Shown here: in pieces, positions 4,600 through 60,993 of the stretch
Layout of the letters: each line of letters begins with the position of its first letter
Numbering within the stretch: position 1 is the first letter of the stretch
NCBI RefSeq assembly: GCF_018873765.1
Contig: NC_057925.1
Coordinates: forward strand, 11,605,568-11,669,567
Reading direction: 5' to 3'
Source of the DNA: Telopea speciosissima
Taxonomy: Eukaryota; Streptophyta; Magnoliopsida; Proteales; Proteaceae
DNA: 64,000 bases
Notes under the pieces: generated by a model
The model's input: only the letters and a program-made list of their open reading frames with translations
Databases searched by the model: none
What the model was told of the DNA's origin: nothing
Position numbers and translations under genes: made by a program

Positions 4600-4822
4600 T
4601 AATTTGGGAACTTTTTACAACAACCAGTCCTTTTTTAAGCTCTGGATACTTATTCTTTCTCACGCTAAAAATGATTTGTCTTTAAGCAACACTCCAATGA
4701 ATGTTTATCTAGGCAAATATTCCAACAATTCAATAATATGGGAACTTTTAACCTAGACCAGTCCTTTTTAAGCACTAGAATCTGATTCTTTCTTTTGTAC
4801 TTACCGTGAAGTCTCTATATAA
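4600..4822 (+). promoter_or_regulatory. CML copy 1 promoter with internal repeat and TATA box
   Basis: A TATATAA box at 4816-4822 lies about 100 bp before the favoured ATG (4920). Upstream, a segment of about 65 bp is present twice (about 4610-4670 and 4738-4797), both copies carrying gggaactttt, accagtcctttt and attctttct. Copy 2 has the matching region at 15020-15255 with its own TATATAA at 15249-15255. A start at 4806 would place the coding sequence upstream of the expected transcription start. Confidence 0.6.
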
Positions 4823-4919
4823 TTCTCTTTGCATGTTCTTCCATTTCCATCACAGCAAAGAGCAAGAGGCAACAAGAAGCAACAAATACTACTCTCGACG
4901 TTCAATCCTAGCTACTCTA

Positions 4920-5420
4920 ATGGCAACAGCTGTTGTTTCCAAGGCCACATTATCCAAATGCTTCTCCAACAAGAGCTTTGTGCTAAGTGTCCATCGCCTT
5001 CAGAATTCCAAAAAACAATCAAGAAATGATGAACTCCAACAAATATTTCGTTACTTGGATACTAATGGTAATGGGAAAATTGAAGGATCTGAACTCAGAT
5101 CCTACCTTGCCTCCAAAAAGGAGTTCATGTCACCTGAGGAGGCTCAAGCTGTGACCAATGAACTCGTTGCAGCAGGCGGCGACAGTTTGACGCTCAGCTT
5201 TGATGATTTTGCAATGTTGATGGAGCGTCAAGGTGGGGATGATGATCTGAAAAGAAGCTTTCAGATGTTCGCTGGGAAGACGTCTGGGTCCATTACATCA
5301 GAGGATTTGCAGAGGATATTCAAAATGTCAAATGAAGAGTGCAAGAGCATCATAAAGGCATTCGACCTCAACGGCGATGGTGTGATTGATTTCCCTGAGT
5401 TCCAGCAGATGATGGCTTAA
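4920..5420 (+). CDS. Calmodulin-like EF-hand calcium-binding protein, CML41-like (copy 1)
   Basis: This 166-residue protein has no intron. The first 35 residues are a basic Ser/Lys-rich leader beginning MATAVVSK, as in CML41 relatives. Four EF-hand positions follow. The first loop is canonical (D47-E58, DTNGNGKIEGSE) and so is the fourth (D149-E160, DLNGDGVIDFPE). The second (about 82-97) and third (about 114-130) lack the usual acidic ligands, so I infer two bound calcium ions. The likely role is a calcium sensor that binds targets on calcium rise. CML41 in Arabidopsis is linked to defence and plasmodesmata, which is family knowledge only. The frame stays open back to 4806, but the TATA box at 4816 favours the ATG at 4920. 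Compared with copy 3 it lacks 15 bp (5 codons, GRLGN in copy 3) between hands 3 and 4, where Arabidopsis CML41 also has residues, so the loss is here. Confidence 0.85.
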   Translation: MATAVVSKATLSKCFSNKSFVLSVHRLQNSKKQSRNDELQQIFRYLDTNGNGKIEGSELRSYLASKKEFMSPEEAQAVTNELVAAGGDSLTLSFDDFAMLMERQGGDDDLKRSFQMFAGKTSGSITSEDLQRIFKMSNEECKSIIKAFDLNGDGVIDFPEFQQMMA

Positions 5421-14959: not shown

Positions 14960-15344
14960 TATGACTTTTGAATGTGGAATCAAGAATGCTCATCATCACT
15001 CAAATCTGGGACCCAATCCATGCATCCACTTTTTACAACAACCAGTCCTTTTTAAGCTCTGGATACTTATTCTTTCTCACACTGAAAATGATTTGTCTTT
15101 AAGCAACACTCCCATGAATGTTTATATAGGCAAATATTCCAACAATTCAATATTGAGGAACTTTTAACCTAGACCAGTCCTTTTTAAACTCTAGAATCTG
15201 ATTCTTTCTTTTTTACTTACCATGAAGTCTCCATCCTATCAAAGTCTCTATATAAGTCTCTTTGCATGCTCTTTCATTTCCATCACAGCAAAGAGCAACA
15301 GGCAACAAGAAAAGAAATACTACTCAACGTTCCTAGCTACTCTA

Positions 15345-15542
15345 ATGGAAACTGCTATTGTTTCCAAGACAACATTATCCAAATGGTTCTCCAACAAGAG
15401 CTTCATGCTAAGTGTCCATCGCCTTCAGCATTCCAAAAAACAATCAAGAAATGATGAACTCCAACAAATATCTCGTCACTTCGATGCTGATGGTAAGAGA
15501 AACTATACAAAGAATACAAAAAACAAGAGAAGAAACAACTAA
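15345..15542 (+). pseudogene. CML41-like copy 2, 5' half only
   Basis: The promoter (14961-15255, TATATAA at 15249), start (METAIVSK at 15345) and the first about 50 residues match copy 1 through DELQQISRHFDADG. At about 15495, inside the first EF-hand loop, homology stops and a foreign segment of about 275 bp (to about 15770) takes over, giving a frame that ends at 15542 with a Lys/Asn-rich tail. Hands 2-4 are gone, so a calcium sensor is not expected. Homology to the other copies resumes in the 3' UTR at about 15771. The replaced segment has no domain I recognise. Confidence 0.8.
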
Positions 15543-18777: not shown

Positions 18778-19060
18778 TACGTTCCCCTCCCCTGTACTTT
18801 GCCCTAATTACACATTCCTCTCCTTGGTTTTTTCACCTTACATTTTGACCCCTTATGGCTAACAGTGTTAGGGTGCTGTTAGTTAACGGTTTGAAAAGAT
18901 AATATTACCCTTTACTAACAAATTAAAACTGCATTTCCAATTCTACCCTTTCATCATCTGTGAAATTGTTTAGGGCTTCCAAGCTTCTCCAACGACAGCC
19001 ACCTCCAAGCTTCTTCAGCCACAGCAACCTTCAAGTATCTCCGGCGACAGTCAACCTTCA
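18778..19060 (+). mobile_element. Mutator-like terminal region (left end) fused to CML copy 3
   Basis: The first about 90 bp are the inverted match of 3480-3568. After about 180 bp come three degenerate repeats of a cctccaagcttctcc-like motif (18975-19060). The sequence then joins the CML coding region within ttcaagaaatgatgaactcc at about 19061. No right terminus remains, so a deletion from inside the element to inside the gene is the simplest account. Confidence 0.55.
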
Positions 19061-19474
19061 AGAAATGATGAACTCCAACGAATATTTCGTCACTTGGATG
19101 CTGATGGTAATGGGAAAATCTCAGGATCTGAACTCAGATCCTACCTTGCCTCTAAAAGGGAGTTCATGTCACCTGAGGAAGCTCAAGGTGTGACCAATGA
19201 ACTCGATGCAGCTAGCGGCGACAGTTTGATACTCAGCTTTGATGATTTTGCAATGTTGATGGAGCGTGAAGGTGGGGATGATGATCTGAAAAGAGGCTTT
19301 CAGATGTTCGCTGCGAAGAGTTCTGGGTCCATTACATTAGAGGGCTTGCAGAGGATATTTGGTCGCCTTGGAAACAAAATGTTGAATGAAGAGTGCAAGA
19401 GCATCATACAGGCATTCGATTGCAACGGCAATGGTGTGATTGATTTTGCCGAGTTCCAGCAGATGATGGCTTAA
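19061..19474 (+). pseudogene. CML41-like copy 3, 3' half only
   Basis: The reading frame matches copy 1 from RNDELQ to the stop (FAEFQQMMA). It has an intact first loop (DADGNGKISGSE) and fourth loop (DCNGNGVIDFAE), and keeps the GRLGN residues that copy 1 lost. The leader and promoter are missing. No in-frame ATG precedes the first EF hand, and upstream the frame runs to a stop near 18972. The longer upstream frame beginning at 18960 enters the gene out of frame. It is probably not translated as an EF-hand protein. Confidence 0.8.
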
Positions 19475-28088: not shown

Positions 28089-28187
28089 TGAGTCCAAAGA
28101 AACAACAATTTCTCTATTATCTCTTTCTTTCCCTTGATGGGTGGTGAAGCAATCTTTTTTTAGTGTTTCTCTTATTGTTTCAGTGAG

Positions 28188-28754
28188 ATGGCAAGGAAAC
28201 CAAGCATGGGTCGTCAGAAGATTGAGATCAAGAGGATCAATTGTGAATTTTCTCGACAGGTCACTTTCTCTAAACGCCGAGCAGGACTCTTCAAGAAGGC
28301 TAGTGAGCTCTGTACTCTCTGTGGTGCTGAGATAGCCATTCTTGTCTTCTCACCTGCAGGTAAGGTCTTCTCCTTCGGCCACCCTAATGTGGAATCCATC
28401 GTTGATAGGTTCCTTAATGAAAACAATTCGCCCCCGGAAACCGCTGCATTGCCTCTTGTGGAGGCTTTCCGTGGAGCTAGTGTTTGCGAGCTCAACCAAC
28501 AGTACACACAAGTGCTCAACCTAATGGAAATCGAGAAGAAGCGAGCTGAGACACTCTACCAATCGACCCCAGAAGCAAAGCAAGGTGAGCCCTGGTGGGA
28601 AGCACCCATTGAAAATATGGGATTGCATGAGCTTCAGAAGTTGATGATTTTTATGGAGGAACTTAAGAAGAATATGAAGAAACGTGTTGATGCTTCTTCA
28701 ATCATCCCTTATGGAGATGGTTATGGTTTTAGTATTGGACGTGGTCTTATCTGA
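28188..28754 (+). CDS. Type I (M-alpha) MADS-box transcription factor, AGL62-like (M1)
   Basis: The 188-residue protein is intronless, as is usual for type I MADS genes. The MADS domain spans about residues 8-66 ([44 protein letters not shown]). A middle helix-rich region and the AGL62-type C-terminal [12 protein letters not shown] (135-146) follow. Family members act in the nucleus as dimers on CArG-like DNA. AGL62 restrains endosperm cellularisation, so a seed or female gametophyte role is inferred. The ATG follows the conserved ttattgtttcagtgag leader shared with M2 and M3. Compared with M3 it lacks 36 bp in frame just before [12 protein letters not shown], dropping the [12 protein letters not shown] segment. 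All DNA-binding residues look intact. It is the closest paralogue of M3. Confidence 0.92.
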   Translation: MARKPSMGRQKIEIKRINCEFSRQVTFSKRRAGLFKKASELCTLCGAEIAILVFSPAGKVFSFGHPNVESIVDRFLNENNSPPETAALPLVEAFRGASVCELNQQYTQVLNLMEIEKKRAETLYQSTPEAKQGEPWWEAPIENMGLHELQKLMIFMEELKKNMKKRVDASSIIPYGDGYGFSIGRGLI

Positions 28755-31662: not shown

Positions 31663-34600
31663 CTAATAAGAGGTGTTTTTCCTTTTCGCCGCGTTGGTGG
31701 CAAGAGCATCCGCAGCCGAATTTGCTTCTCTATAGCAATGGGTCATACGCCACTGGATGGAGCCAAGAAAGTTAGAGGCTTTCCACCACTTATACATTAG
31801 GTTCCAAGGAATCTTATTAGAGAGAATTGAAGAGACAACTGCTCCCAAGTCGCACTCAATCCAAAGATTTCTTGCACCCATTTCTCTAGCGTGGTCAACT
31901 CCTGTAAAGAAAGCCCCCAGTTCAGCCATGTAATTCGATCCCACACCCTGGTGCTCAGAGAAGCAACTTAACACAGCTCCCAAGTGATCATGAAGTACCC
32001 CTCCTCCTCCTATCGATCTAGGATTACCCAAGGAAGAGCCATCAATGTTCAATTTCCACCACCCAAGTGGTGGTTGCCTCCATCGCACTTCTACCATCCT
32101 TCTAACAGGTGGCCTTGAAATTGTCACCTTCAGCATACGTGCCAAGGTAAGATCATTCACTGTTTGCACCTGCACCCCTTTCACCCTTATGCAGTCCCCA
32201 ACTTCCCCATAGCATAGCTTTGCCACTTCAGTAGGAGTTCTTCTCAAGTTGTCATGGCATCGTCTATTGCGCTCCCACCAAATATTTTTGCAGCAGATAA
32301 TCAGTATAGCATTCCATGCCTTAGGTAGGGGAACAGTCTTCGCCTTTCTGCGCCACCATGAAAACAATAATTCAATGGTTGGGAAACCACTCCAGCTCTG
32401 ATTGAAGACATATAGCACCGCCATCCAGATTTGACGCGAGAAGGCATAGTCAAGAAATAGATGCTTGATCGTTTCGCAGTCCATGTAGCATAGATCGCAC
32501 CTTGACGCTAGAGGAACTGCTTTGTGGCATACCATGTGGTCAGTGGGAAGTACTCCATGCGTAAGCCTCCATCCAAATACAGCAGCACGTGGATGAAGGT
32601 CACGGTTCCAAACAGTTGATACCCACTCAGGTGAGGGCACCTTTATGCGCAGGGTCTCCCAAGCAGTCTTGACCATGAAGTGGCCAGTGGTTGCATGCGC
32701 CCAAAATCTCATATCCAGTCTGTTGTGACAAGTAATTCCACTACCTTGAATCATCGTGAAGGCCCTTTGGAGTTTAGGTTCTTGGACTGCCGGCAGATCC
32801 CAACTACCTTCTTTCCAAAAGTTCGCCACCATTGCCGATAAATTGCGTGGAATGTGTAGGGGATAGACGAGGTCCTCAATGCTTTGGTTGTGAACCCACT
32901 TGTCATACCAAAAACTTACTGAATTTCCATTTCCAATCACCCATCTCTCTGCAAACCGAATAAAATCCCAAACTCTTCTTAGCCTAGGTAGAAGCGTGGA
33001 GGTATCAGCAGTCTTCTTGAGTGACCCATCTGCCTTCACTAGTCGACCTCTCAAAAAAGCTGCCAGGGTAGACTGATCTGTGTATATAGTCCAGGAGAGT
33101 TTAGCAATCAGGGCCAAATTTAAATCTCATAATCGAAGAATTCCGAGTCCACCTTCCTTCTTGGGCTTACACAGCCTATCCCATCAAACAGTGATGGCCC
33201 TAGAGCTATCAGCCTCCCCTGACCAAATAAAGTTACGTATCCATCTCTCCATAACCTCTATAGTGCCCAATGGCCAGAGATATACAGAGAAGTTGTGGAC
33301 TGGGATACTACCGATGATAGTACGAACCAGCTCAATCCTTCCGGCCATGGCAGATGGCGTCCCTTCCAAGACGCAAGTCTTAGCTTGAACTGATCTACTA
33401 GAGGCTTAATCATGTCGGGTTTCACCCTGCCCTTCATCAATATAACTCCTAGGTACCTTGTTAGGAAGATACACACTGGGATTTGGATCACTGATAAAAT
33501 TCTCCGTCTTCTAGCAGCTGAGACACAACCAAAATAGACCTTGCTTTTAGCGAGGTTGATCACATGTCCTGAATAATCTCCATAGGCCTCCAGAAAGTGC
33601 TTGACACGCCTAACATTAGCCAGCTCTGCCTTCATAAAGATAAACAGGTCATCAACATAAAAAAGGTGGGAGGGGGTTATCACCTGGCGTGGCCCTGCAA
33701 GAGCATTATGCCATCCTCTATGTGGCATGTCCTTCAACCCTCTGCATAGCACCTCTTCAGAGAGAATAAAAAGGAGAGGGGATCGACAGTGGGTCACCTT
33801 GTCTCAATCCTCATTCCATCCCAAAAAAGCCGACCAATCCACCATTAATCAAAATTGAGATCCGAGTTGATTGGAGTATTTGGTGCACCCAATGAATCCA
33901 CAATTGTGAGAAACCAAAGGCACTGAGCACATCGAACAGAAAACTCCACTCAAGCGTGTCAAAAGCCTTTTGTATGTCCAGCTTCATACCCATTCCACCT
34001 CCCCTACATTTAACTTCCATTAGGTTTGTAAGCTCTGAAGCCACCCCAATATTTTCATAAATAACTCTGCCTTTCTGGAAAGCCCCTTGCTCTGGAGAAA
34101 TCAGCTTGTGCAATATGGAGGATAATCTGGTTGACATAATTTTAGGGATAATTTAAAAAAGAAATTCCCCATGCAAAGAGGGCGGAACTGCCCACCCTTT
34201 TGGCATTCTCAACCTTAGGGATCAAGCAGAGAAAATTACAGTTCACCCCTTTAGTCACAATGCCTTCGCTGAAGAAACTCTGAATGCCTCGACACACGTC
34301 CCTACAAATGATGTCCCGACACACCCTAACGAACGTACCAGGGTAACCATCCGGTCCAGGGGCATTAGCTGGGTCCAAGTCAAAAATAGCAGTTCTGATT
34401 TCGTCTTGCGAAGGGATCTTAGACAGCATGACATTATCTTGATCTGTTACCAGGGTAGGGATCGCTGTCAGAAGAGCTGCATCTCTAATCCTCCCCCCAC
34501 TCTTGAAGAAGCTCTCATAGTGAGCTACTAAATGATCACCAATCTCCTTAGGATCAGTCAAGGCCGAGCCATCATCCCTTAATATTTCTCGAATGGTGTT

Positions 34601-35792
34601 CTTGGCACGCCTCATTCTAGTTGAGAGATGGAAATATTTAGAGCAGCGATCACCAAATTTCAACCATTTTTCTCTTGATTTTTCACCCCAAAGCCTCTCC
34701 TGTAGCTCAAGAGCTTGGTTATAATCATGACGAGCCTGTACCTTTCTCTCAAATAATGCTTCAGAGAACCCTTCCGCATCTAATAGACCTTGTACCTGGT
34801 CAAGTTCAGCCTTAGAGCGGCTGATTTCATGATCAACGTGGGGGAAAGTTGGAGAGCCCAATACCAGTTCTACCTGAGCTCTGCACCACTCTACAAAAAT
34901 CCCCATGATCTGCCCAAAACCTTTGCATGCGGAAAGGGATATTATTAGGCCGCGGCACCGCTTCACTACACACCACCAGAGGTGCATGATCAGAGGATCC
35001 ACGAACTAAAACTCGCTGAACCTACCTTGCATAGTGCTGATCCCAAATATCATTACAGAAACTTCGGTCAAGCACTGCTTGCACGTTCCCCACCCTCCTA
35101 TTATTTGTCCATGTGTACTTGTTGCCTATTGAGTGAATCAGAATCAGAGCTGCCGCCTCTAACATGGCTGCGAACTCCTCTGCAGAGCCTATGTTGAAAA
35201 TACCCGGGCCTCTTTTATCTCCTGCATAAAGGTAAGCATTGAAATCACCGATAACTAGCCAAGGGCAAGCCATACCTGCAATCGATGCCAGGTCAACCCA
35301 TAGCTGGCTTCTAGCTGCTCTAAAACAGCTCGCATGAACCACTGAGAAAATATTACTCAACCCATTTAATTCTACTCTCATGGAGATATGTTGCTCAGAT
35401 TTCTTGATCACCACTGGCCGATGCAGTCCCATCTTCCATAGGCACCAAATATTGTCAGGGCCCTCTTCACGTTCATTTGAAATAAGGTCCGAGTACATCC
35501 CCAACGAAGTGATAAAACGACGAGGAAATCTCTCAGCACCAATCTTAGGCTCAGCCAAGCATAAAAAATCCGGATTCTGTTCCTTCACTAAAGCTCGCAG
35601 ATGTGCTCTAGCTTTACTGTTACCCGCCCCCTGATGTTCCAAAAGAGGCAACGCATGTTCAGAACTCTTCAGAATTTTCCTGGCGCTGAGATACAACACC
35701 ACGTTGTTGAGCGAGGCTTCTAGCAACAGAGTTGGCTTCAAGTGCACCTTTCCCTCTATGTCGTGCGCCTGTGATGATATTGCCCTGTTCAA
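31663..35792 (-). pseudogene. LINE ORF2: endonuclease, reverse transcriptase, zf-RVT, RNase H (broken)
   Basis: Read from 35792 downward: an exonuclease-endonuclease-phosphatase fold (35700-35022; PDFLCLAEPKIG, LVIGDFNAYL, YTWTNNR), a linker (35002-34142; DPANAPGPDGYPGTF), and reverse transcriptase motif A (LDIQKAFDTLEW, about 34040-34000) with the catalytic YVDD box (33660). The zinc-binding RT domain (CDLCYMDCETIKHLFLDY, about 32510-32450) and RNase H (LNIDGSSLGNP, AELGAFFTG, CDLGAVV, REANSAADALA, 32055-31680) follow. The frame is split into at least five pieces, at about 35010, 34140, 33800 and 33200. The endonuclease would nick the target for target-primed reverse transcription. Confidence 0.93.
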
Positions 35793-35979
35793 TATGTCTT
35801 TCCCTTACTTGGCGCCTGCGTGGGGCCTCCAAGAAAAGTTCTGTTCCTTCGCTTTTATCCTCTCGTGAATGATCTACATGAACTACCACAGCTGTCCTAC
35901 CATTGTTGCGACATTCAATCTGAATAGGAGTGGGCCGGTTCACATCATGTGAAGCCTCAGCCTGGTCCAAAGAACCAGA

Positions 35980-37226
35980 TCAGGGAGTAGGATCTACTCT
36001 CAAACTAATCCCATCCGAACCACCATGCACATGTGATAATGGTACATGTGATAATGGTGTCTCAACTACCACCGTGTTTGAACGTGATGCCGAAGAAGTA
36101 GGCATGCTAGGTTGCACTCCCTGAAAATTCTCCTTCCCAGCTGCCAAAACCACAACAGTTTGCACCAAATCCGCAGCCTGCGTCATCCTTTCCTTAGAGT
36201 CCAAAACCAACTTTGCTTCCCCCACCGCCCTGACCCCTGCCGGCGAGCTCCCTGAAACACCCTCGACTGCCGTCGATGATTCTCTAGGATGCCACTCCTG
36301 TCGGTGTGAAATGCACTGGCCTTGCCTCTCGTCGTTAATGGCATCAGGCATGCCATCATCATGCTCCATCTCGCGGCTTCTGCAATGTTCCTCTCGATGC
36401 CCATACCGATGACATCGATGACATCGAGTTGGCGGATCCTCAAACACAACTTTCTGCTTGAAGACATACATCTCCATGGACCCCTCCTATTCCCGTTCAA
36501 CATAGACTTCCTCGACCTGAGGCACAGAGTCATCTACATCCACACACACTCTCGCATAATGCCCAAAGTGCAAATTCTTAGTTCTTCTGTCAATGGCGAT
36601 TGCCTCCCCACCGCCTTTGCGATCAATAGAATAATATCCTCATGCCAGTATTCTTGCGGCAAGCTTGGAAAACGAATCCAGGTTAATCTGTTTGTGATAG
36701 CCTGATCATCAACCACGAAGTCTTTTCTCCACTGCTGGAACCTCAGGGTTTGTCCATCCACGCGAATAGGACTTCTTCTCCAGATGCATGTCATGTCCTC
36801 TGCGTTGTGAAATCTGAAGATAATGAATCCCTTGCCTAACGACTTCATTGAAACTCCTTCTTTCAAACCCCAGTTCCTCATTGCATCTCGAACCCTGTCC
36901 ATCGTGGTAAACCTAAAGTTCAGCCTTCCCAGGAGCGCGAACTTAAGCGTGTTCAACTATTCCATGTACGCAGCTTGGGGAATCTTGATCCTCGTGAGTG
37001 ACCCATCTCGAACTGAGGCCGGCAGACTCTCAATCTCAGGTAGCAAAGGTCGTGTCACATTCACATAAGACCTTGCAGTCACCTCTGCAACCTTAGGCTG
37101 ATGCAGCAAGGTAGGAAAACCTAGGAAGCCCCCAATGTCAAACACAGCTCGTCCATCTGGGTCCGGGCATCCCCCAATCTCTCTCTGCCTGTCATGCAAA
37201 ATGCTCCACCAATCGCAGCCATCCAA
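35980..37226 (-). pseudogene. LINE ORF1: DUF4283-like and zinc-knuckle protein (broken)
   Basis: The first part (37226-36957) ends in an in-frame stop after IPQAAYME. The DUF4283-like region follows (36956-36534; FALLGRLNFRFTTMDRVRD, SLGKGFIIFRF, EYWHEDIILLIAKAVGR). A frameshift leads to the CCHC-like knuckle CHRCHRYGHREEHC (about 36430-36385) and a low-complexity tail. In plant L1 elements this protein binds the element RNA. Confidence 0.9.
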
Positions 37227-38212: not shown

Positions 38213-38477
38213 ACAACAAATACTATTCCTCTTTTTTTTCATAACACCACATCATATAAAAGGAAATTAATTTGAGATTGGCTTTCGGATTTCAAGTCGA
38301 CAGTGGAGGTCACACTGGAGAAATAACATTGCACCCAGAAATCTAGATCTCATAAGATATTTGAATCTAAATTTTCCTAATTAGCGGCTAAAGCTTCAGA
38401 GATGGAAATAAGAGGATATAGAGGCAAGAATTTTAAATATTTGGACAGATTAAATGAAATTGGAGGAAAGAAAGGCC

Positions 38478-38484
38478 TATAAAT
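38478..38484 (+). promoter_or_regulatory. TATA box of M2
   Basis: TATAAAT in aaaggcctataaatccacc, the same context as M4. It is about 85 bp before the ATG. Confidence 0.7.
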
Positions 38485-38564
38485 CCACCTTCTTTAACCT
38501 CAATTCTGTGTCAATTGAGTCCAAAGAAGAACAGTTTCTCAATTTCTCTTATTGTTTCAGTGAG

Positions 38565-39236
38565 ATGGCAGGGAAACGAAGCTTGGGTCGTCAGAAGATT
38601 GAGATCAAGAGGATCAATTGTGAGGCTTCTCGACAGGTTACCTTCTCCAAACGCCGAGCAGGGCTTTTCAAAAAAGCGAGTGAGCTCTGTACTCTGTGTG
38701 CTGCCGAGATAGCCATAATTGTCTTCTCTCTTGCAGGGAAGGTGTATTCCTTTGGCCACCCAAATGTGGGGTCCGTCATTGAAAGGTTCCTCACTGTAAA
38801 CAATCCGCCACAGGAAGCCGCTGTGTTGCCTCTTGTGGTTGCTCACCGTGCAGCCAGTGTTCGAGAGCTCAACCAAAAGTATACAGAGGTGCTCAACCGA
38901 AAGGAAACAGAGACGAAGCGAGCCGAGGCATTCAACCGATCGACCGCAGAAGCGAAGCAGAGCGAACCATGGTGGGAAGCACCCATTGAAAATATGGGAT
39001 TGCTTGAGCTTCATCAGTTGAAAATTTGTATTGAGGAAATTAACCAGACTATGACGAAACGGCTTGAAGAGCTTGTGGCCAAAGCTGCTGTTACCTCCCC
39101 TTTCTTATCTATCAATCCAATGGGAATGGTGGATCATTTTGCAGCAACAAGAGCTACCCCAAATCCAAATAATGTTTCTTTAATCATCTCTCATGGACAT
39201 GGTTATCGTCTTAGTCTTGGACGTGGTCTTTTCTGA
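38565..39236 (+). CDS. Type I MADS-box transcription factor, AGL62-like (M2)
   Basis: 223 residues, no intron. The frame is open from 38454, but the TATA box at 38478 and alignment with the other copies put the start at [10 protein letters not shown] (38565). The MADS domain covers about residues 8-66 with [19 protein letters not shown]. It reads [15 protein letters not shown] where the others have CGAE and SPAGK, a Pro to Leu change in the beta strand. The C-terminal [12 protein letters not shown] (135-146) is intact, followed by a 60-residue tail ([18 protein letters not shown]) shared with M4. Role inferred as for M1: nuclear DNA-binding regulator of seed or gametophyte development. It is the nearest paralogue of M4. 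Confidence 0.92.
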
Positions 39237-40289
39237 ACTACTCTTCTTCTTTTTCTTCTTATTCTTCTCTCTCTGTCTGTCTATCTGTATAGTTCCCTTA
39301 TAGGTCATCTATGTAAACAAAGGATCGACTTATGAATAATATTGCATGGATTTTTAATCTCGAATCCTGATATATATGGACTCTTATCTCCAATGGCATG
39401 AGGACATGCATAACAAGGTTGGACCAGAGAGTGGTCTAAGAAGTAAGAACCCTCAATCCGGTTGGACCCTCGACTGTAGCCTCATGCTAGAATCATGCCT
39501 AAGGAACTTTGTGTTGGCTTTATGTGTCCATCAAACCCGGTTTGGTACGGTTCAATCTGGTTTACTTTGTATTGAACTTTTACATATTTTGGTTTAATAT
39601 CATCACATGCGATATAAACTTTTTTGATCATTATGTGTCCTTAAGGTTTACTTAAAATGGTAGTCACGACTAAGGTTTGGGCTGGGCACCCTTATCATAT
39701 GGTTGTCACATTGGGTATGCCTAGACTTGTTGATGTCAGGGTACGAATGCGAGTGCACATAATGTTGTGCATTGGAGAAGAATCTACTTTGCCGATTACC
39801 TCATGTATTACTGCAAGATGTAGGATGGGATAGACATGTGATAGACATGTGTCATCGAGGCCCTGTACCTGAGAGGACCTTGTCACTGCGAAAAATGACT
39901 GTATTCTTTGGATCATCAATGACTAAGATTCAACAGAGTCAAAGCCGATGTTCTGGGAATGCATGAACATTTCGTGAGTGAGGATGTTACTCAACTTGGT
40001 CACCACTGCCCAATTGGAGAACAATATCAAGATAGAGATTGTCTATGGATGGTCGGATCAGAATCTGGATCCAATGCCGTTTTAGAAATGGTTCTTGCAA
40101 AACCTATTTTAGGCTAAAAGGTCGCAGTACGTACGCAAAAATAACTTGACAGTTCATTCTTCCATTGATAACCATTGATTTAACTTATCCAAGCACAGGC
40201 GTTGAACTATTTACCTAAGACCGGCTACGACCTAATCTCTCCCTCCTTCCCCAAAGATGACAGCCCAATTCCTACAGTCCCCTACCCCA

Positions 40290-40290
<1 letters not shown>
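39237..40290. other. M2 3' flank and copia LTR-like remnant
   Basis: 39240-39360 is the 3' flank shared with M4. From about 39515 (tgtgtccatcaaacccgg) to about 40120 the sequence resembles copia LTR material of the kind seen inverted at 19922-21286. It is too decayed to set ends. Confidence 0.4.

Positions 40291-40292
<2 letters not shown>

Positions 40293-40321
<29 letters not shown>
40293..40321 (+). repeat. (CT)n microsatellite
   Basis: About 14 CT dinucleotides. Confidence 0.95.
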
Positions 40322-41109
40322 GTTTCTTACAGTGAACATCAAGGAAGCATTATGACTCTTCAATGACATGAAAAGGAAGCAGATATCTTCTTCTATCTAT
40401 ACCTATAGATCGTTGATTTGTAATTTAAGAGAGTTGGGAAGTTGGGGTTGGCACAGATTTCTCTGTCTTTGCCAAGTTGCAGAGCTTGAGGGAACCGAGA
40501 ACAAATTGATTTCATGAGAAATGGTGCGAAAAGGAGACGATTTCTCATGAAATCAATCTATTGTGGTGACCTTCGCGCTGCTACTCCAAAAAAGTGATGT
40601 GATATTTTGAGCTTGTGCTCCGAAGCAGAGGTAGGTGGATGAAATGCGACTGAGTTCAGAGGCTACTGGCTCCTATCCTCTCCCATCCTACTATCAATCC
40701 ATTAGTTATCTTTGGTTCAATTGAGAGTACAAGGACATCTTCTTCTTCACCCTTTATTGAGCAGCCCCAAGGCATACATCTACGAATCACAAACATTAAT
40801 TTTAGAAAAATCAATCGAATGATAAATTGTTGAGTAAATTACTCCCCCCTCTTATGCTCTAATGACAAACCCCTCCCCTGGGTATTGAGTAATGACTCTC
40901 CCCTCCCCTGTATTAACAAGATTCTATCAATCTTATCCATTTTGACTGACAGTGTTAAAAATGCAAATAAAAAGATAATAATACCCTCATCTCTACCTCA
41001 CTTCTTTCTTCTTCCTCCTGTAACCCCACCCGCTCCCACCACTCTGCACCACCGCCACCCCACTCTTCTTCTTCTTCTTCCTAATGCATCTCCAGAAGCT
41101 GTACGAATT

Positions 41110-41569
41110 TCCATGTTTAGGTGTGAAAAAAGCTCGGCAGAGATTGGAACTCTTATAAAACTCAAGTTGGCGACTTAGAGCTCGCATGTCTACCAATTCA
41201 TCATCGTCAAGACCGATCTCGTATTCACCAAAAAAAAAAAAGTCAAGACCGATCTCAATCACCTCTGCTAAGCTGTTACGCCATGAGAGGAGGTTGGAGT
41301 GGTGCTCATATGGCCCAACAAAGACCACCCATCTCTCTTCTCTCTTTAGGCTCTTGAGTATCCTTTCTCTCATGGTTGAAGGCACTGTGATTCCCATAAC
41401 CTCTTGAAGATGTTTGATTGTTGGAGTGGTGCCAGAGCCACAGAATATGAATGCAGCATCTGCTCCTGCGCCTAAGCAATTTTTAATGTATGCGGTTGCC
41501 TCGTTCACCATCTTAGTTGTCTTGTGCCCCATGTAGCTGTCACTTGTATGTGTGTTCCCTGTAAATCAA
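41110..41569 (-). pseudogene. Captured fragment of a PLP-dependent aminotransferase class V-like gene
   Basis: Minus-strand reading: SDSYMGHKTTKMVNEA, GAGADAAFIFCGSGTT, RERILKSLKREERWVVFVGP, YEHHSNLLSWRNSLAEVIEIG, DDDELVDMRALSRQLEFYKSSN. This is the N-terminal part of the plant cysteine-desulfurase-like family, and EHHSN is family-typical. Reading begins after an acceptor-like tttacag at about 41570, so an exon with intron edge was captured. Inside it, a tail-only insertion (A-run at 41226-41237 plus gtattcacc) is bracketed by 15-bp copies of gtcaagaccgatctc and repeats EIGLD in frame. The piece lacks the catalytic lysine region and is not a whole enzyme. Confidence 0.85.
41208..41258 (+). 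mobile_element. LINE tail-only insertion inside the captured aminotransferase exon
   Basis: gtattcacc plus an A-run lies between two copies of gtcaagaccgatctc (about 41208-41222 and 41242-41258). Removal of one copy and the insert restores a normal family sequence (AEVIEIGLDDDELVD). Confidence 0.75.
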
Positions 41570-41570
41570 T

Positions 41571-42240
41571 TCAAAATGAAGTATTTTCCATAGAAAGGAA
41601 CCAAAAGAGAGGGCTTTCAGTCAATCCATGGTGGTTATACGAGTCTATAGGAGTCGGTGGTGGAGTAAATGGTGGAGAAGGCATAGGAGTTAAAAATGGG
41701 GTCTCCACAGTGGGGAGGATATCACTCAAGCTCCTACTTCTTGACCCTTTTCGGCTTTTTCCACTTCTGGATTTCCCATCATCGGACTCCAAATCTTCCT
41801 TCAAATCTTCTTTAATGGTGAAGAGGAATCGTGGAGGTCCACACAAATTCTGCCGCATCAAGAGTTCTAAATCCATGGCATCATCTTCAAAGGGTTTCAG
41901 TAACAAATCCTTATGTGACCCAAAATGAAGGTTAAGTTAATTCTCTATTTTATGACCATGGGCTCTTGTAATTCTCACAGAGGTGCAGAGTTCCTGAGGG
42001 TTCAAGGTTGTGGAACTCAACAACGGTGGTTTATTTTTTTCCAGCAAAACATATAAAATAGCTCTCTTGTAGGAGTGTTGTAATCATCTTCAATCTCTCT
42101 GTCGGTGACCCTCTTTTTCCACCATAACAAATAGTAGAGCTCTGCAACAAGAGCTAAGAGCAGACAACCGAACACCAAAATTAGACCAATTCCTAAACTG
42201 CTCAAAGGCCTCATCCTCGCTCCAGAATCACATTCCACAT
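41571..42240 (-). pseudogene. Captured piece of a plant single-pass membrane protein gene of unknown function
   Basis: From 42238 downward: MRPLSSLGIGLILVFGCLLL with a membrane helix to about ELYYLLWWKKR, then DYNTPTRELFYMFCWKK. After a break come ELCTSVRITRAHGHK (about 41985-41945) and, in another frame, MRQNLCGPPRFLFTIKEDLK, RKGSRSRSLSDIL, ETPFLTPMPSPPFTPPPTP, DSYNHHG (41860-41630). This order matches a conserved plant family with an N-terminal helix and Ser/Pro-rich tail whose function I do not know. It has at least two frameshifts and is not a working gene. Confidence 0.75.
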
Positions 42241-42362
42241 CTACTGTCGCTGTTCTTTCTTCAAGATCTCACTTCAATATCCAAAATCTCAGCTAGGTCT
42301 AAATTTTCCTGTACTACCAATCTCTCTGTTCTCTAATTGATCACCGAAAACGATCATCAGCA

Positions 42363-42700
42363 ATTGTGAGACTGGGAGATCCAGAGGGTTTGGCTTCGTT
42401 ACTTTCCGCGATGAGCAATCAATGAGGGATGCTATTGAATGGATGAACGGATAGGACCTTGATGGTAGGAATATTACTGTCAATCAAGCCCAGACCAGGG
42501 GTGCTGGCGGTGGTGGTGGAGATGGTTATTGCAGTGGTGGTGGCGGAGGCTATAGAGGTGAAGGCGGCAGTGGTTATGGATGTCGTGAGGCCGGCGGTGG
42601 TGGATACAGCCATGGTAGTGACCGTAGCTAAGGAAATGGTGGTGGCGGTGGTGACCATGGGTATGGAAGTGGTGGTGGCGGTGGTGATGGTGACCGTTAG
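42363..42700 (+). pseudogene. Captured C-terminal half of a glycine-rich RNA-binding protein gene
   Basis: Plus-strand reading ETGRSRGFGFVTFRDEQ (with the RNP1 motif RGFGFVTF), MRDAIEWMNG, DLDGRNITVNQAQTRG, then GGGGG, GYRGEGG and GGGG blocks. This is the second half of the RRM plus the glycine-rich tail of the GRP7/GRP8 class, which bind RNA in nucleus and cytoplasm. The first half of the RRM is absent. In-frame stops follow EWMNG and HGSDRS. The piece starts beside aaacgatcatcagcaattg, which may be intron. Confidence 0.87.
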
Positions 42701-42953
42701 ACAAACTGGAGAAATGAGGTTTTTAGGGTTTTGATATGGTTAGGGGTATAATTGGAATATCACAAACATAAGGGTATTGTGGGGTTTAAATGAATATTTT
42801 TAGGGTGACATCATCACTTAATAGTCATTTTTAACGGAATGGGTAGGGTTGATAGAATCTTGTTAATACAAGCGAGGGGAGAGTCATTACTCAATACCCA
42901 AGGGAGGGGTTTGTCATTAGAGCATAATCGAGGAGAGGGGGGGTAATTTACTC

Positions 42954-43517
42954 TAAATTGTTTTATTTGAAGGCTCTCTCAAAGTTCATCTGCCTCTTAT
43001 TTGGCCACCCCCCTTGTTAATGAGAAGGGGCAAATCAATCACTAGCTGTTGCTTTGTTGTCTGGCAGATAGCAATTAACATCTTCCCCTGTTTTCTCCTT
43101 TTCATCTATAAAACATCTTTACCCTAGTTAGATCATTACCGTGAAATGTAATGTGTTTCTCTGTTCGGTTTGGTTGTTCGATTTGGTTTCAGGAACTCTG
43201 AATCGACGACGCTACCATCTATTGCAAGCAAGAATAGAATGTCATCTTTCCATCTTACTAAAATGGAAAAGAATCGACCAGCCACTTGGATTTGCATGGG
43301 AGAGATGCAAATAAGTGGGATGGGAGGGGATGCAAAAGCATAAGGTGGGAGGGGATGCTGAGGCACAGAGCGAGCAGAGAGGTGTTTCTGGCTTTCTGCA
43401 AGGTTCATGGCAAAGGTAAGGAGGGAGATGTAGAGAGCTAGAGTTGGGAAGGGGGAGAGACAAAGAGAGAAGGCTGGGAGAGAGATGCAAATAGGTCGAT
43501 GGGAGGAGAAGGGTTGC

Positions 43518-43549
<32 letters not shown>

Positions 43550-43760
43550 CACGAGGCTCTCACCGTAAGAGCCAAGAACCTATCACTGAGTGAAACTTCA
43601 TGAACGGTTGAGATCAACTTTATACCTAATCTATGATTATAGTATAAGAACGCAAAAATTAGTTGGCGGAACGTACGTACTGCCTCCGGTCACCCTAAAT
43701 TATATGTAGTTTTATTTGAAAATATTTTATCGTGTTTTGCGAGATCCGATCACATACACA
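42954..43760. other. Spacer without a gene
   Basis: Apart from the (GA)n run at 43522-43549, I see only unassigned sequence. 43240-43480 is purine-rich and yields meaningless Ser/Pro/Leu frames. Confidence 0.6.
43522..43549 (+). repeat. (GA)n microsatellite
   Basis: About 14 GA dinucleotides. Confidence 0.95.
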
Positions 43761-44870
43761 AATGCTCTCATATGGACATGTTCTATGGAATTGGGTTTGG
43801 CAGGACATGTGTGCATGTCGTAGATTCCATAATGGTGATGTTGATTAGTGGTGGGTTGGTACATAATAATTTATTATTATGTGAGGGTATAATTGGAATT
43901 TGCTAATTAATTAATTGTTTATTTAATTTAGTGGATGTGGTGCTAATTATTATTTATCTATTAAATATAAAATAAATAATTAATTAAATATTTCCTATTA
44001 GATTCTGCTTCTTCACCAATTAGAAGCCCATCAGGTTTAAACAGGTTCAAGTCAATGTGGAGAGAGAGTGTCACTCTCACTGGGATTTCAAAGATAGGGT
44101 TTTGGAAACCCATATTATCAACACACACCAAAAGGGGGGGGGGGGGAGGGGGCGAAAAAGGCTTGTACATTTCTGGCTCCCTCCCCCCTTGGATGGTTTT
44201 GGCTCCCTCTCTCTCTCTCCTTCTTCTTGCTCTCTAGCTTTTGAGAGTTGCGGTTTTGGAAACCCATATCTATGCTTGAAGATTTGAAGAAGAAGATTTT
44301 GGATTGACTTGGAGAACCTTGGTAGCACCATTGGAGGTTCAAGTTTGTTTACCTAGTGTGCTTATTAGAGGAAGAACCACTATCCATTGGAGGAGCAACA
44401 CTTGAGGCTCAACAGGTTAGCAAGTTTTTGTTAATTCCTCTTGTTTTTAATTATATGATAATCATAGGATGCGAAAGAAACCCGAATCAATCTTTTTCTG
44501 TTGCGCATTTGGGTATGGGATGGATCCCTCTTTCCATGGGATGGAAAAGAGATGAGTTTTCTTATGGATCCCATAATTTTATGGGACAAGAAAGAGAAGG
44601 ATTGGGTATCGGATTTTCATACCAAACCTTAATGGGCCCAAGGTTCCCATGGGCAACCATGGGCAACCCTAAAATTTAATAGGGCACCTGCGACCATGGG
44701 TTAACCCAGGAGGTATAAAACCCTAATTGTTTTATAATTGGTTTCCCAGGGAAATTAGGAGATGATCCCATGGACTGCTATTTGACTAACACTTTGCACG
44801 TGGTATGTCAAGAGCACAATGACTGACATTCCTGACAAATTTGGTTAACGGTTCCTGTGGGATCTCCCGC
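43761..44870. other. AT-rich unassigned region, possible LTR remnant
   Basis: 43850-44000 is made of taatta/ttaatta repeats. aggttttggaaacccatat occurs twice in near-identical form (44097-44115, 44252-44270), bracketing a G-run (44134-44153). This looks like a degraded LTR but the ends are not found. Confidence 0.3.
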
Positions 44871-46918
44871 CTAATGTAAGGAATACGCAACCCTAAAGGA
44901 GAGGGAGGACAGAATAGCATAAGTAGAAGAAGCGAAGGAGAAAGAAAAAGTCTCTGATTACTATTCTATGGGTTAAGATGCTGAAGCTCTAGAGCCAAGC
45001 TTTCCGGCCTAGTTAACTTCTGTTTTGCTCTGAGATCTAACTTAGGCATCAGAGAGTCCCCCCTAGAACCCATTCTTAGGCACTCACCTGCTCCGTCTTC
45101 TGGTTCTATTTGTGTAAGACGGAGTTGAATCGTGAAGGGAAGATTTCAACAGCAACAGATTGGCACCTACCGTGGGATTAGAAATTGGCTACGGAGCAAA
45201 GGTTCATTAACCATGGCGAGTAGAAAAGAAGGAAGGAAAACAATATTACCATCAAGGAATGTAGATCCTAGTTTGACGACCATCGACTTGCAACTGAATG
45301 CTCTGCCATCCGCAATCTCCCCCAACCACAGTGACAGTCGCCGTGAACATCCAAGAGAAGCACTTCCTCGCAATGAGGGAGTAGATCCCAATGCTCCGGT
45401 CACCCAAAGTCAATTTGCTGCCATGGGAGAGAGAATGGAAGTATTAATGAGGATAATGCTATAGAACGGTGAACAACAGAGAAACAAGACTCACGATCCT
45501 CAACACCATCGCGACCAACTTCAAGTGGAGGGAAACAACAACTCAAATTCCAGCAGATATGGTGGAAACCAGTAAACCACCACCCCCTCCCGCATGAGCA
45601 ACCACATATAGGAGCATGAGCAACCACATCTAGGAAATCAATCGGATCGAGCCAAGCATCTTCAACAACATCCTCATCCACAAGTACTACCTAGGAACAA
45701 TCAACAACTGGGCAACCAAAAAGAGATCCTCCAACGTAGAATTCCAGTGATAGGGAATCAACACAACTTCGCTGAAAAAATAGAAGAACTACAACAACAA
45801 TTGGAAAAGATCCGAAGGGACCAAGATCCCCAACTGAAGGGAGCTACTAATTTAAATTTCTCCAATGAGACGACACTCTCCGACAAAATAATGAGGGCTC
45901 CCCTTCCTCGGGGGTTCAAGATGGCCTCGATCGGAAGTTACGACAGAACCTCAGATCCGATGGAACACCTCATTAATTTCAAGACCGTGATGCTGCTCCA
46001 CGGCGCTCGAGATCCAATTATGTGTAGAGCCTTCCCTGACACACTCACCTTCGGAGCCAGAGCCTAGTTCGGCCGTCTAGAACCAAGGTCAGTGAATAAC
46101 TTTATTGAGTTGGGAAATATTTTCATTGGCAATTTCTTGAGTAGTAGAGATTATACGAAAAATATTGCAAGCTTATCAACAATTAAGCAATGGAAAGGAG
46201 AATCCCTCCGCTCTTACTTGATGCGCTTCAACAAAGAAGACATGGAAGTGGAGAACCTTCCCTATAACAAAGCTAAATGCTCTAAACGAAAGTGTCCGGA
46301 ATTCTCTACTACTAGTATCCATTGTAAAGAAAAGTTCAAAAACTATGGATGACTTCATGGTGTGCTGTGATAAATACATCAGGTGGAAGAAGCTCTAGCT
46401 ACTACCAATGAACAGGGAGCTGGCCAGGGCTCCAAAAGGAGAGATCCTGATGACAGGGAAACAAGGTCTGACTACAGGAAGAAGTACCAACCTAATCCAA
46501 GTTTGAGCCAGTATGGGAATTCCCCTCGAATAGAGAGATTCACCACACTCAATCGTAGGAGATCAAAGATTTTAATGCAGATAGAAGGCACCAACCTCCT
46601 TTGACAACCCGAGAGGATACAAATGGATCCGGCCAAAAGGGATGGATCGATGTCTCTACCACGACCGTGACACAGATGACTACTATCACTTAAGGGCCGA
46701 GATAGAAAGATTGATCCAAAGATGGTATCGGAGGGATTTCATCGCCAATCCCAACCTCCGACAAGATAGGCTGATCAATAGAATACCCGAAAGACTCAAT
46801 CAAAGGGGTCAACTGGGTTGAAGAGATAATCCACGACCCAACAGGGAATATAACCAAAGGAGAGACATGCAAAGGGAACATTGAAAAGGAGGTCATGAAC
46901 AAGAGAGGCATAGGGACA

Positions 46919-48894: not shown

Positions 48895-49035
48895 CCATTT
48901 TCTTTAACCTCAATTTTGTGTCTAATTGAGTCCAAAGAAGAACAATTTCTCTATTTTCTCTTTTCTTTCCCTTGAAGAAAAGAAAACCTTGGTGAAGCAG
49001 TCTTTCTAGTGTTTCTCTTATTGTTTCAGTGAGAG

Positions 49036-49638
49036 ATGTCAAGGAAACCAAGCATGGGTCGTCAGAAGATAGAGATCAAGAGGATCAATTGTGACACTTC
49101 TCGACAGGTCACTTTCTCTAAACGCCGATCAGGACTCTTTAAGAAGGCCAGTGAGCTCTGTACTCTTTGTGGTGCCGAGATAGCCATTCTTGTCTTCTCA
49201 CCTGCAGGTAAGGTCTTCTCCTTCGGCCACCCTAGTGTGGAATCCATCATTGATAGGTTCCTTACAGAAAACAATCTGCCAACGGAAGCCGCTGCGTTGC
49301 CTCTTGTGGACGCTCACTGTGGAGCTAGTGTTCGTGAGCTCAACCAACAGTACACACAAGTGCTCAACCTAATGGAAATCGAGAAGAAGCGAGCTGAGAC
49401 ACTTTACCAATCGACCCCAGAAGCAAAGCAGGGCGACCCATGGTGGGAAGCACCCATTGAAAATATGGGATTGCTTGAGCTTCATCAATTGAAGGCTTTT
49501 ATGGAGGAACTTAAGAAGAATATGAAGAAACGTGTTGATGAGCTTGTGGCCACTGATACCCTAAATCCAAATTATGCTTCTTCAATCATCCCTTATGGAG
49601 ATGGTTATGGTTTTAGTTTTGGACGTGGTCTTATCTGA
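49036..49638 (+). CDS. Type I MADS-box transcription factor, AGL62-like (M3)
   Basis: 200 residues, single exon. The MADS domain is at about 8-66 ([34 protein letters not shown]) and [12 protein letters not shown] is present. It keeps the [13 protein letters not shown] segment lost from M1 and ends [16 protein letters not shown] as M1 does. The start [10 protein letters not shown] follows the conserved ttattgtttcagtgag leader, with two extra bases before the ATG. Role inferred as for M1. The 5' leader is longer than in M2 and M4. Nothing in the protein suggests loss of function. Confidence 0.92.
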
Positions 49639-51943: not shown

Positions 51944-52108
51944 AATTATGGTTTCCAATTATCTGTCCCTCCATTTTCTTCAATTCTTCTAATAGGAGGA
52001 ATGAACTCCACCCGGGCAGCGTGTTCAGACAAGTGATAGGGTGATCATTTTCGCCCTTTATGATAGGAATTGGAGAAAATAGAGAGGCAGATGATTGGAG
52101 ACGATAAA
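51944..52108. mobile_element. Foldback MITE just upstream of the M4 TATA box
   Basis: The arms tttccaattatctgtccctc (left) and the inverse of gaggcagatgattggaga (right) pair, and the middle shares cacccgggcagcgtgttc with the element at 50427. In M1 and M2 the same place reads uninterrupted (ttgaaggaaagaaggcctat and its M2 form), so the MITE is an insertion about 11 bp before TATAAAT. Confidence 0.8.
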
Positions 52109-52118
52109 GCAGAAGGCC

Positions 52119-52125
52119 TATAAAT
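52119..52125 (+). promoter_or_regulatory. TATA box of M4
   Basis: TATAAAT in gaaggcctataaatccacc. It is about 75 bp before the ATG and directly downstream of the MITE. Confidence 0.7.
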
Positions 52126-52197
52126 CCACCTTCTTTAACCTCAATTCTGTGTCAATTGAATCCAAAGAAGAACGGTTTCTCTTATTGTTTGAGTGAG

Positions 52198-52869
52198 ATG
52201 GCAAGGAAACGAAGCTTGGGTCGTCAGAAGATTGAGATTAAGAGGATCAATAGTGAGGCTTCTCGACAGGTTACCTTCTCTAAACGCCGAGCAGGGCTTT
52301 TCAAAAAAGCGAGCGAGCTCTGTATTCTGTGTGGTGCCGAGACAGCCATCCTTGTCTTCTCTCCTGCAGGGAAGGTGTTCTCCTTTGGACACCATAGTGT
52401 GGGGTCCATCATTGAAAGGTTCCTCACTGTAAACAATCCGCCACAGGAAGCCGCTAGGTTTCCTCTTGTGGACGCTCTCCGTGGAGCCAGTGTTTTAGAG
52501 CTCAACAGAAAGTACACAGAGGTGGTCAACCTGCTGGAAACAGAGACGCAGCGAGCTGAGGCATTCAACCGATCGACCACAGAAGCGAAGCAGAGCGAAC
52601 CATGGTGGGAAGCACCCATTGAAAATATGGGATTGCTTGAGCTTCATCAATTGAAAATTTGTATGGAGGAAATTAACCAGACTATGACGAAACGGGTTGA
52701 AGAGCTTGTGGGCAAAGCTGCTGTTACCTCCCCTTTCTTATCTATCAATTCAATGGGAATGGTGGATCGTTTTGCAGCAGCAAGAGCTACCCCAAATCCA
52801 AATAATGCTTCTTTAATCATCCCTGATGGACATGGTTATTGTCTTAGTTTTGGATGTGGTCTTTTCTAA
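52198..52869 (+). CDS. Type I MADS-box transcription factor, AGL62-like (M4)
   Basis: 223 residues, no intron. The frame extends to 52156, but alignment favours MARKRSLGRQ (52198). The MADS domain is complete ([29 protein letters not shown]), though the invariant-looking AEIA of the other copies reads [16 protein letters not shown] and the long tail ([18 protein letters not shown]) match M2. The end reads CLSFGCGLF where the others have SLGRGLF or SFGRGLI. The frame is intact. Its proximal promoter is altered by the MITE at 51944, so its expression may differ from M2. Confidence 0.9.
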   Translation: MARKRSLGRQKIEIKRINSEASRQVTFSKRRAGLFKKASELCILCGAETAILVFSPAGKVFSFGHHSVGSIIERFLTVNNPPQEAARFPLVDALRGASVLELNRKYTEVVNLLETETQRAEAFNRSTTEAKQSEPWWEAPIENMGLLELHQLKICMEEINQTMTKRVEELVGKAAVTSPFLSINSMGMVDRFAAARATPNPNNASLIIPDGHGYCLSFGCGLF

Positions 52870-59909: not shown

Positions 59910-59940
59910 TTCCTCTGGTTAGTTTTCTCAACCAGAGGAA
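59910..59940 (+). promoter_or_regulatory. Perfect 11-bp inverted repeat between TATA box and ATG
   Basis: TTCCTCTGGTT (59910-59920), a 9-base loop, and AACCAGAGGAA (59930-59940). It straddles the expected transcription start. It could be a protein binding site, or a leader hairpin if transcription starts upstream. Confidence 0.7.
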
Positions 59941-59958
59941 CTTTCTTCTTCAATCAAT

Positions 59959-60993
59959 ATGGCTTCTTTCCCATTTTCTGCTAGTGCTGCATTGATAGAA
60001 AAAGAAGAAGAAGAAGGTGTAGGCCAAGAATGTCAGGAACTGCTTCGATCACTTCCTCAGGAAAAGGGTTGGCGAACTGCTCATATCTACCAATACCAAG
60101 GCTTTTGGGTTGCAGGGAAACTAATAGAATCAATCATAGAAATTCAGCAAAATTTCCGAGTTCGTGACACTGATGTCTTGCTGGTCACTACCCCAAAATC
60201 AGGTACAGTATGGTTGAAAGCCCTTGCTTTCGCAATTATGAACCGCAATCGTTATTCATTCTCAGAAAATCCTTTGCTTAATACCAACCCCCATGAACTT
60301 GTTCCCTTCTTAGAACATGGGGTTTTCATTAGTAACAAACTACCCTATCTCTCTACCCTCCCATCTCCTAGGCTTTTTGCCTCACATATCCCTTACCCAT
60401 CCTTGTCTGAGTCCATTAAGACCAATAATTGTCGAATCGTTTATCAATGTCGGAACCCTAAAGACATGTTTGTATCACTCTTTCTTTTTTCGGGTAAGCT
60501 TAGACCTGAAAATCTTGGGCCACTCTCACTAGATCAAGCTTTTGAGTTATTCTGTAAGGGAGCCTATGAATTTGGACCCTATTGGGATCATGTGTTAGGG
60601 TTTTGGAAGGAAAGCTTTGAAAGGCCTCAGAAGGTGTTGTTTTTGAAGTATGAAGAAATGAAGGAGGACAAGATATCAAATTTGAAGAAGCTAGCACTTT
60701 TTTTGGGGTACCCTTTTACTTTGAAGGAAGAAGAAGATGGAGTGGTGGATAAAATTTTAGGGTTGTGCAGTTTTGAAAATTTAAAGAGTTTGGAGGTGAA
60801 CAAGACTGGAAAACTGATGCCAAGAGGAGATAATGCAGTGTTTTTCAGGAAAGGAGAAGTTGGAGATTGGATGAACCATTTGAGTCCAGAAATGGCAGAG
60901 AAAATAGACAAGATCACTGAAGTGAAACTACTTGGTTCAGGTCTGTCATTTCAAGTGGCTTCCTTTGAGAATGAAACAGCATCTGCCAGCTGA
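59959..60993 (+). CDS. Cytosolic sulfotransferase (PAPS-dependent, plant SOT family)
   Basis: 344 residues, single exon, complete, a normal length for plant SOTs. It transfers a sulfuryl group from PAPS to a small hydroxylated substrate in the cytosol. The 5'-phosphosulfate loop is TTPKSGTVWLKAL (77-89; most relatives have SGTTW). The likely catalytic His is H143 in RLFASHIPYPSL. The 3'-phosphate binding segment is YQCRNPKDMFVS (162-173). The C-terminal PAPS motif is FRKGEVGDWMNH (296-307). The acidic N-terminus (EKEEEE, 14-19) is typical of the SOT group acting on hydroxyjasmonate, brassinosteroid or flavonoid substrates, but the substrate cannot be told from sequence alone. It stands alone with its own TATA box. 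Confidence 0.95.
   Translation: MASFPFSASAALIEKEEEEGVGQECQELLRSLPQEKGWRTAHIYQYQGFWVAGKLIESIIEIQQNFRVRDTDVLLVTTPKSGTVWLKALAFAIMNRNRYSFSENPLLNTNPHELVPFLEHGVFISNKLPYLSTLPSPRLFASHIPYPSLSESIKTNNCRIVYQCRNPKDMFVSLFLFSGKLRPENLGPLSLDQAFELFCKGAYEFGPYWDHVLGFWKESFERPQKVLFLKYEEMKEDKISNLKKLALFLGYPFTLKEEEDGVVDKILGLCSFENLKSLEVNKTGKLMPRGDNAVFFRKGEVGDWMNHLSPEMAEKIDKITEVKLLGSGLSFQVASFENETASAS

Follow-up and report, generated by a model that had tools for sequence, protein, structure and literature searches.

Pack-MULEs, the Mutator-like elements of rice and other plants that carry fragments of host genes, were reportedly described by Jiang et al. 2004. The sacred lotus is a member of the order Proteales. According to excerpts of the published surveys, rice has more than 3,000 Pack-MULEs (PMC4858842) and sacred lotus 1,447 (PMC4053705). 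Gene-carrying MULEs are thus described in lotus, another member of Proteales besides the plant studied here, Telopea speciosissima. The window, i.e., the whole stretch of 64,000 nucleotides that was analysed, contains between positions 40832 and 42953 an element that shares with the Pack-MULEs of rice and other plants the long inverted ends, the 9-bp duplication, the lack of any transposase that could be found, and the host-gene fragments, as these traits are given in excerpts of PMC4858842, PMC8277862, and PMC3310237. It differs from them, to the extent covered by the same excerpts, in having three sources on two strands, which is probably more than most have. The element belongs to a well-known and well-studied kind, is otherwise ordinary, and is not new in type. 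We put at roughly nine in ten the probability of a non-autonomous Mutator-like element (Pack-MULE) from a Proteaceae host, in which genomic DNA of three host genes, very probably unlinked, was copied between the terminal inverted repeats, and which was inserted between MADS genes and is decaying.

Pack-TYPE elements of the CACTA, hAT, PIF, and Mariner superfamilies have terminal sequences and duplication lengths that differ from those of the present element. They resemble it in having several source loci per element, as stated in parts of PMC8903248. The same parts indicate that maize Pack-TYPE elements often contain more than one locus and that, in rice, the multi-locus share is significant (19%) only for Pack-Mariners; in Oryza, two or more parents are given for 5-10% of MULE-derived putative genes (excerpts of PMC4858842). 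Because elements that draw on several source genes are known from parts of PMC4858842 and PMC8903248, the preliminary description of this DNA overstated the case when it called a three-source element rare. Excerpts of PMC2773423, PMC1852403, and PMC3544724 treat multi-gene fragments in transposons and pseudogene-like Pack-MULEs, and no figure for exactly three sources per element was found in them or in those of PMC4858842 and PMC8903248. Our literature search found no Pack-MULE report for Proteaceae, including Macadamia. With its exact ends, duplication, and intron remnant, the element is a clean case, bounded on both sides, of how a Mutator-like element can shuffle genes in what is very probably a Proteaceae genome. 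Its three pieces could be dated against their parents, which could make it a worked case for the question of stepwise gain versus gain in a single repair event in multi-gene Pack-MULEs.

Element boundaries and classification

When the entire window was scanned for inverted repeats (E up to 0.01, a minimum of 30 columns, arms less than 12 kb apart), two pairs emerged, and only one of them has an exact 7-11-bp duplication at its flanks. This pair delimits the element, whose left end at 40832 and right end at 42953 are exact coordinates taken from the sequence. The left arm (40832-40941, plus strand, 110 nt) begins with GAGTAAATTAC, which is the inward reading of both ends, and the right arm (42838-42953, minus strand) has 116 nt; the two align with 88.8% identity over 116 columns (E 2.5e-36). 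The perfect 9-bp duplication TAAATTGTT adjoins both ends directly on the outside, at 40823-40831 and 42954-42962. The chance of an exact 9-bp match at two fixed places is about 4e-6 (4 to the power -9, with equal base use). The 2.1 kb element with long inverted ends and a perfect 9-bp duplication that had been claimed is therefore there, at 2,122 bp.

Four of the features by which Pack-MULEs are recognised are present. The terminal inverted repeats are long (at least 50-100 bp being expected, 110 and 116 nt at 88.8% being found), the target-site duplication at the ends is a perfect 9 bp within the range of 9-11 bp, and the interior holds fragments of ordinary host genes. No transposase domain was found in the 13 distinct sequences derived from the element and scanned (10 ORFs and 5 stretches, two of them shared), as is the case in non-autonomous elements. 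A weak similarity to eIF3m_C_helix (E 0.03-0.04), which falls short of the Pfam cut-off, was ignored. The earlier attribution to Pack-MULEs is supported by this anatomy, on which the probable assignment to the MULE class rests. Several points speak against the alternative that some other superfamily (Helitron, CACTA, hAT, or PIF) gave rise to this gene-carrying element. The duplication has 8 bp in hAT elements and 3 bp in CACTA and PIF elements, and Helitrons are not known to have terminal inverted repeats or a duplication. Such elements do bear gene fragments too (excerpts of PMC8903248 and PMC2773423), but arms of more than 100 nt together with a duplication of exactly 9 bp fit the MULE criteria found in part of PMC3310237 (inverted repeats of at least 100 bp at 80% or more, duplication of 9-11 bp), which makes this alternative highly improbable.

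Within the window, BLASTN found neither a further copy of the element ends, apart from the two arms themselves, nor a second copy of the interior. With at most one mismatch, GAGTAAATTAC occurs at six places against 1.64 expected, a number reached by 3 of 100 shuffles and taken as chance; three of the six lie within the element's own ends. Loose matches to short pieces of the ends, such as one at 59428 (18 nt, 3 mismatches), were likewise taken as chance. Two subterminal stretches lie between the arms and the gene pieces. The left one (40942-41142) is pyrimidine-rich and might be a fourth captured fragment; in the two ORFs that cover it (40834-41178 on the plus strand and 40993-41565 on the minus strand), neither a transposase nor any other Pfam family matched this part. 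It also contains a short minus-strand frame that begins with MEIRTASGDALG. The right one lies at 42716-42837.

The three gene pieces

The interior was said to hold three pieces of unrelated genes on two strands, which protein relatives, Pfam, and tblastn bear out. For the first, described as one exon from a class V aminotransferase-like gene on the minus strand, the identity, strand, and place stand, and the extent has to be corrected: only part of the exon is present, together with the tail of the preceding intron. The second holds as given, i.e., most of a small membrane-protein gene on the minus strand (198 of about 320 residues). The third, given as the C-terminal half of a glycine-rich RNA-binding protein on the plus strand, is confirmed in place and strand but appears to be a whole last exon. 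All three pieces are truncated and damaged by stops, a frameshift, or an insertion, and none of them could yield the intact product of its parent gene.

The aminotransferase piece (41143-41558, minus strand) was delimited by PF00266, protein relatives, and tblastn bounds. PF00266 matches it with an E-value of 5.2e-5 when a 36-bp insertion is left out, and the ORF that includes the insertion with one of 9e-4, below Pfam's cut-off. Relatives at E up to 0.001 make up 156 of the 162 candidates, the best by E-value having 72% identity across 99% of the 128-residue query, and no named Proteaceae relative is among the 120 matches listed, from a search that excluded full-length proteins. The identity of the piece follows from the Pfam match and these relatives and not from solved structures, among which nothing was significant (best E 0.87). 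The piece ends about 40 residues short of the point where the ORFs of several relatives end. In the other direction it is preceded by an intron tail (41559-41622, minus strand) that ends with TTGATTTACAG, and from this position onward the sequence of the relatives runs GNTHT. The motif NTH[TS] with at least one residue before it occurs in 40 of the 120 listed relatives; the preceding residue is G in 39 of these 40, among which no conserved residues were seen further upstream. We placed the exon boundary where this conservation ends, as would be expected of the start of an exon. Since the piece keeps a 3' splice site and the tail of a predicted intron, genomic DNA was copied and not a spliced message, which demonstrates, as read from the sequence, a genomic rather than a cDNA origin for this piece.

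The insertion in the captured exon (41206-41256, plus strand) consists of two copies of the 15-bp GTCAAGACCGATCTC, at 41206-41220 and 41242-41256, that surround the 9 nt GTATTCACC and twelve A. These additional 36 bp are absent from the eight aminotransferase relatives aligned. Its appearance is that of a very small retroposed insertion, heavily truncated and accompanied by a 15-bp duplication, that came after the capture of the exon.

The second piece (41623-42214, minus strand) encodes the first 198 of about 320 residues of an uncharacterised plant membrane protein, as indicated by protein relatives, tblastn, and a tree, and has a frameshift near 42035 (two tblastn frames) and one in-frame stop. 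The search gave 1,025 candidates, 915 of which qualify as relatives (E up to 0.001), and the top three of the 120 listed come from Macadamia integrifolia (LOC122085474, 84%), Protea cynaroides (NE237_003219, 83%), and Telopea speciosissima (77%). In the tree, made of 16 rows (the element copy and 15 relatives picked from the 120 listed), the copy falls in a clade of Proteaceae (support 100/98). Its grouping with Macadamia LOC122085474 and Protea NE237_003219 has weaker support (83/87), and the tree does not settle the branching order within this trio. The listed Telopea protein groups with a Macadamia paralogue and not with the copy. The branch of the copy (0.11) is about twice as long as those of the Macadamia and Protea relatives (0.047 and 0.048), as expected for a copy without constraint. 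Over the same columns, the copy is 86.2% (168/195) identical to the Macadamia protein and 86.1% (167/194) to the Protea one, whereas these two share 90.2% (175/194). This lower identity and the longer branch suggest that the copy is probably not very recent.

Judging from its sequence, the junction region that follows (42215-42352) probably comes from the 5' untranslated part of the membrane-protein gene, with perhaps an intron tail of the RNA-binding-protein gene as well.

The third piece (42353-42715, plus strand), delimited by PF00076, protein relatives, and tblastn bounds, comes from a GRP1A/GRP7-like glycine-rich RNA-binding protein. It includes the C-terminal half of the RRM (PF00076 positions 36-70 of 70) and the glycine-rich tail, with three in-frame stops. 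Relatives at E up to 0.001 number 1,807 among the 7,980 candidates scored, and the top three of the 120 listed, each covering 41% of the query, are from Protea (NE237_022476, 92%), Telopea (85%), and Macadamia (92%). These relatives, those of the second piece, and the tree indicate that the host is very probably a member of the Proteaceae. The piece looks like the whole last exon, running from an intron position suggested by the relatives to about the C-terminus. Five matches with short upstream leaders enter the family sequence at about the point where the copy begins (RGFGF less than 25 residues from the start), in a comparison where the searched motif was present in 119 of the 360 stored matches, and one cotton model (P0319) reads into an apparent intron there. 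The element has no AG directly before the piece.

Probable separate source loci and proposed mode of capture

The three pieces are contiguous at present and two of them share a strand, which would also be seen if three neighbouring genes of one ancestral locus had been mobilised as a single piece. We compared the contigs that carry the top named relatives, which serve as putative stand-ins for the parents. The relatives of the membrane-protein and RNA-binding-protein pieces are on different contigs in all four species compared: Macadamia (contigs of 34,869,494 and 44,010,915 bases, respectively), Protea (101,892,100 and 83,762,663 bases), Telopea (84,316,875 bases for the former, 69,013,595 and 87,811,904 for the latter), and Nelumbo (9,755,933 and 8,593,181 bases). 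For these two pieces, the test that adjacency in one locus would undo the three-source claim is answered against adjacency. Furthermore, the intron tail of the aminotransferase gene directly adjoins the membrane-protein gene where the latter is cut in mid-coding sequence, and no intact arrangement of neighbouring genes gives such a junction. Given the different contigs and the mid-gene junction, a single ancestral locus appears very unlikely, and its mobilisation as one piece is barely credible.

For a Pack-MULE with separate sources, the following course can be proposed. A MULE transposase made elsewhere in the genome would have moved the pair of ends, and host repair, acting either in the course of transposition or afterwards, would most likely have copied gene DNA between them through gap filling or through template switching; both models of gene capture are discussed in parts of PMC8277862. 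The product would then have been inserted between two MADS genes, giving rise to the 9-bp duplication, and would have decayed since. We infer that the element is without function.

Possible antisense effects

The suggestion that transcripts from either end would be antisense to at least one parental gene is borne out by the anatomy, in that any plus transcript spanning the element would be antisense to two of the parents and a minus transcript to the third. This orientation alone is no evidence of silencing, and silencing by transcripts of the element may be considered as a possibility. A regulatory role, which overlaps with the explanation as a Pack-MULE and adds a function to it, would require that antisense or small RNAs derived from the ends lower the expression of the three parents. 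Besides the orientation, it would have precedents in rice, where excerpts of PMC8277862 have 40% of Pack-MULEs transcribed and possibly encoding small RNAs, and in the mRNA and small-RNA evidence said in parts of PMC4858842 to exist for Pack-MULE interiors. We regard it as improbable. The membrane-protein copy is 86% identical to its closest relatives at the protein level and has a longer branch (0.11 versus 0.047 and 0.048), a divergence that may leave little exact match with the parents. Even less probable is a three-target element, in which one transcript pair would give rise to small RNAs against the aminotransferase, the membrane protein, and the clock-type RNA-binding protein and which would have been kept for this effect. 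No Rfam family was found at gathering thresholds in 39000-45000, a result that bears only on known RNA families.

Genomic setting

The element was described as sitting in a MADS gene cluster, and PF00319 was indeed found in all four ORFs scanned (28164-28754, 38454-39236, 49033-49638, and 52108-52869, plus strand), which are probably MADS genes of type I. Compared with the ORF at 38454, the other three have 75-90% identity in the DNA that aligns (BLASTN). The insertion is intergenic, about 1.6 kb downstream of the MADS gene at 38454-39236. The tandem duplication of the MADS genes would allow the insertion to be proved from a paralogous flank that lacks the element. Around the gene at 38454, however, the homology of the duplication extends to about 39367 and stops short of the insertion, which leaves no empty site in the window. 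Other features were noticed along the window. Between two of the MADS genes, an apparent broken non-LTR retrotransposon (31663-36956, minus strand) has zf-RVT and RVT_3 in the ORF 31663-33126, with more ORFs upstream of it. Three similar-looking calmodulin-like ORFs lie in a row on the plus strand (4779-5420, 15195-15542, and 18974-19474), the second apparently truncated and the third being the one in which EF-hand domains were confirmed. Finally, a sulfotransferase ORF (PF00685) at 59923-60993, plus strand, is apparently intact and single-exon.
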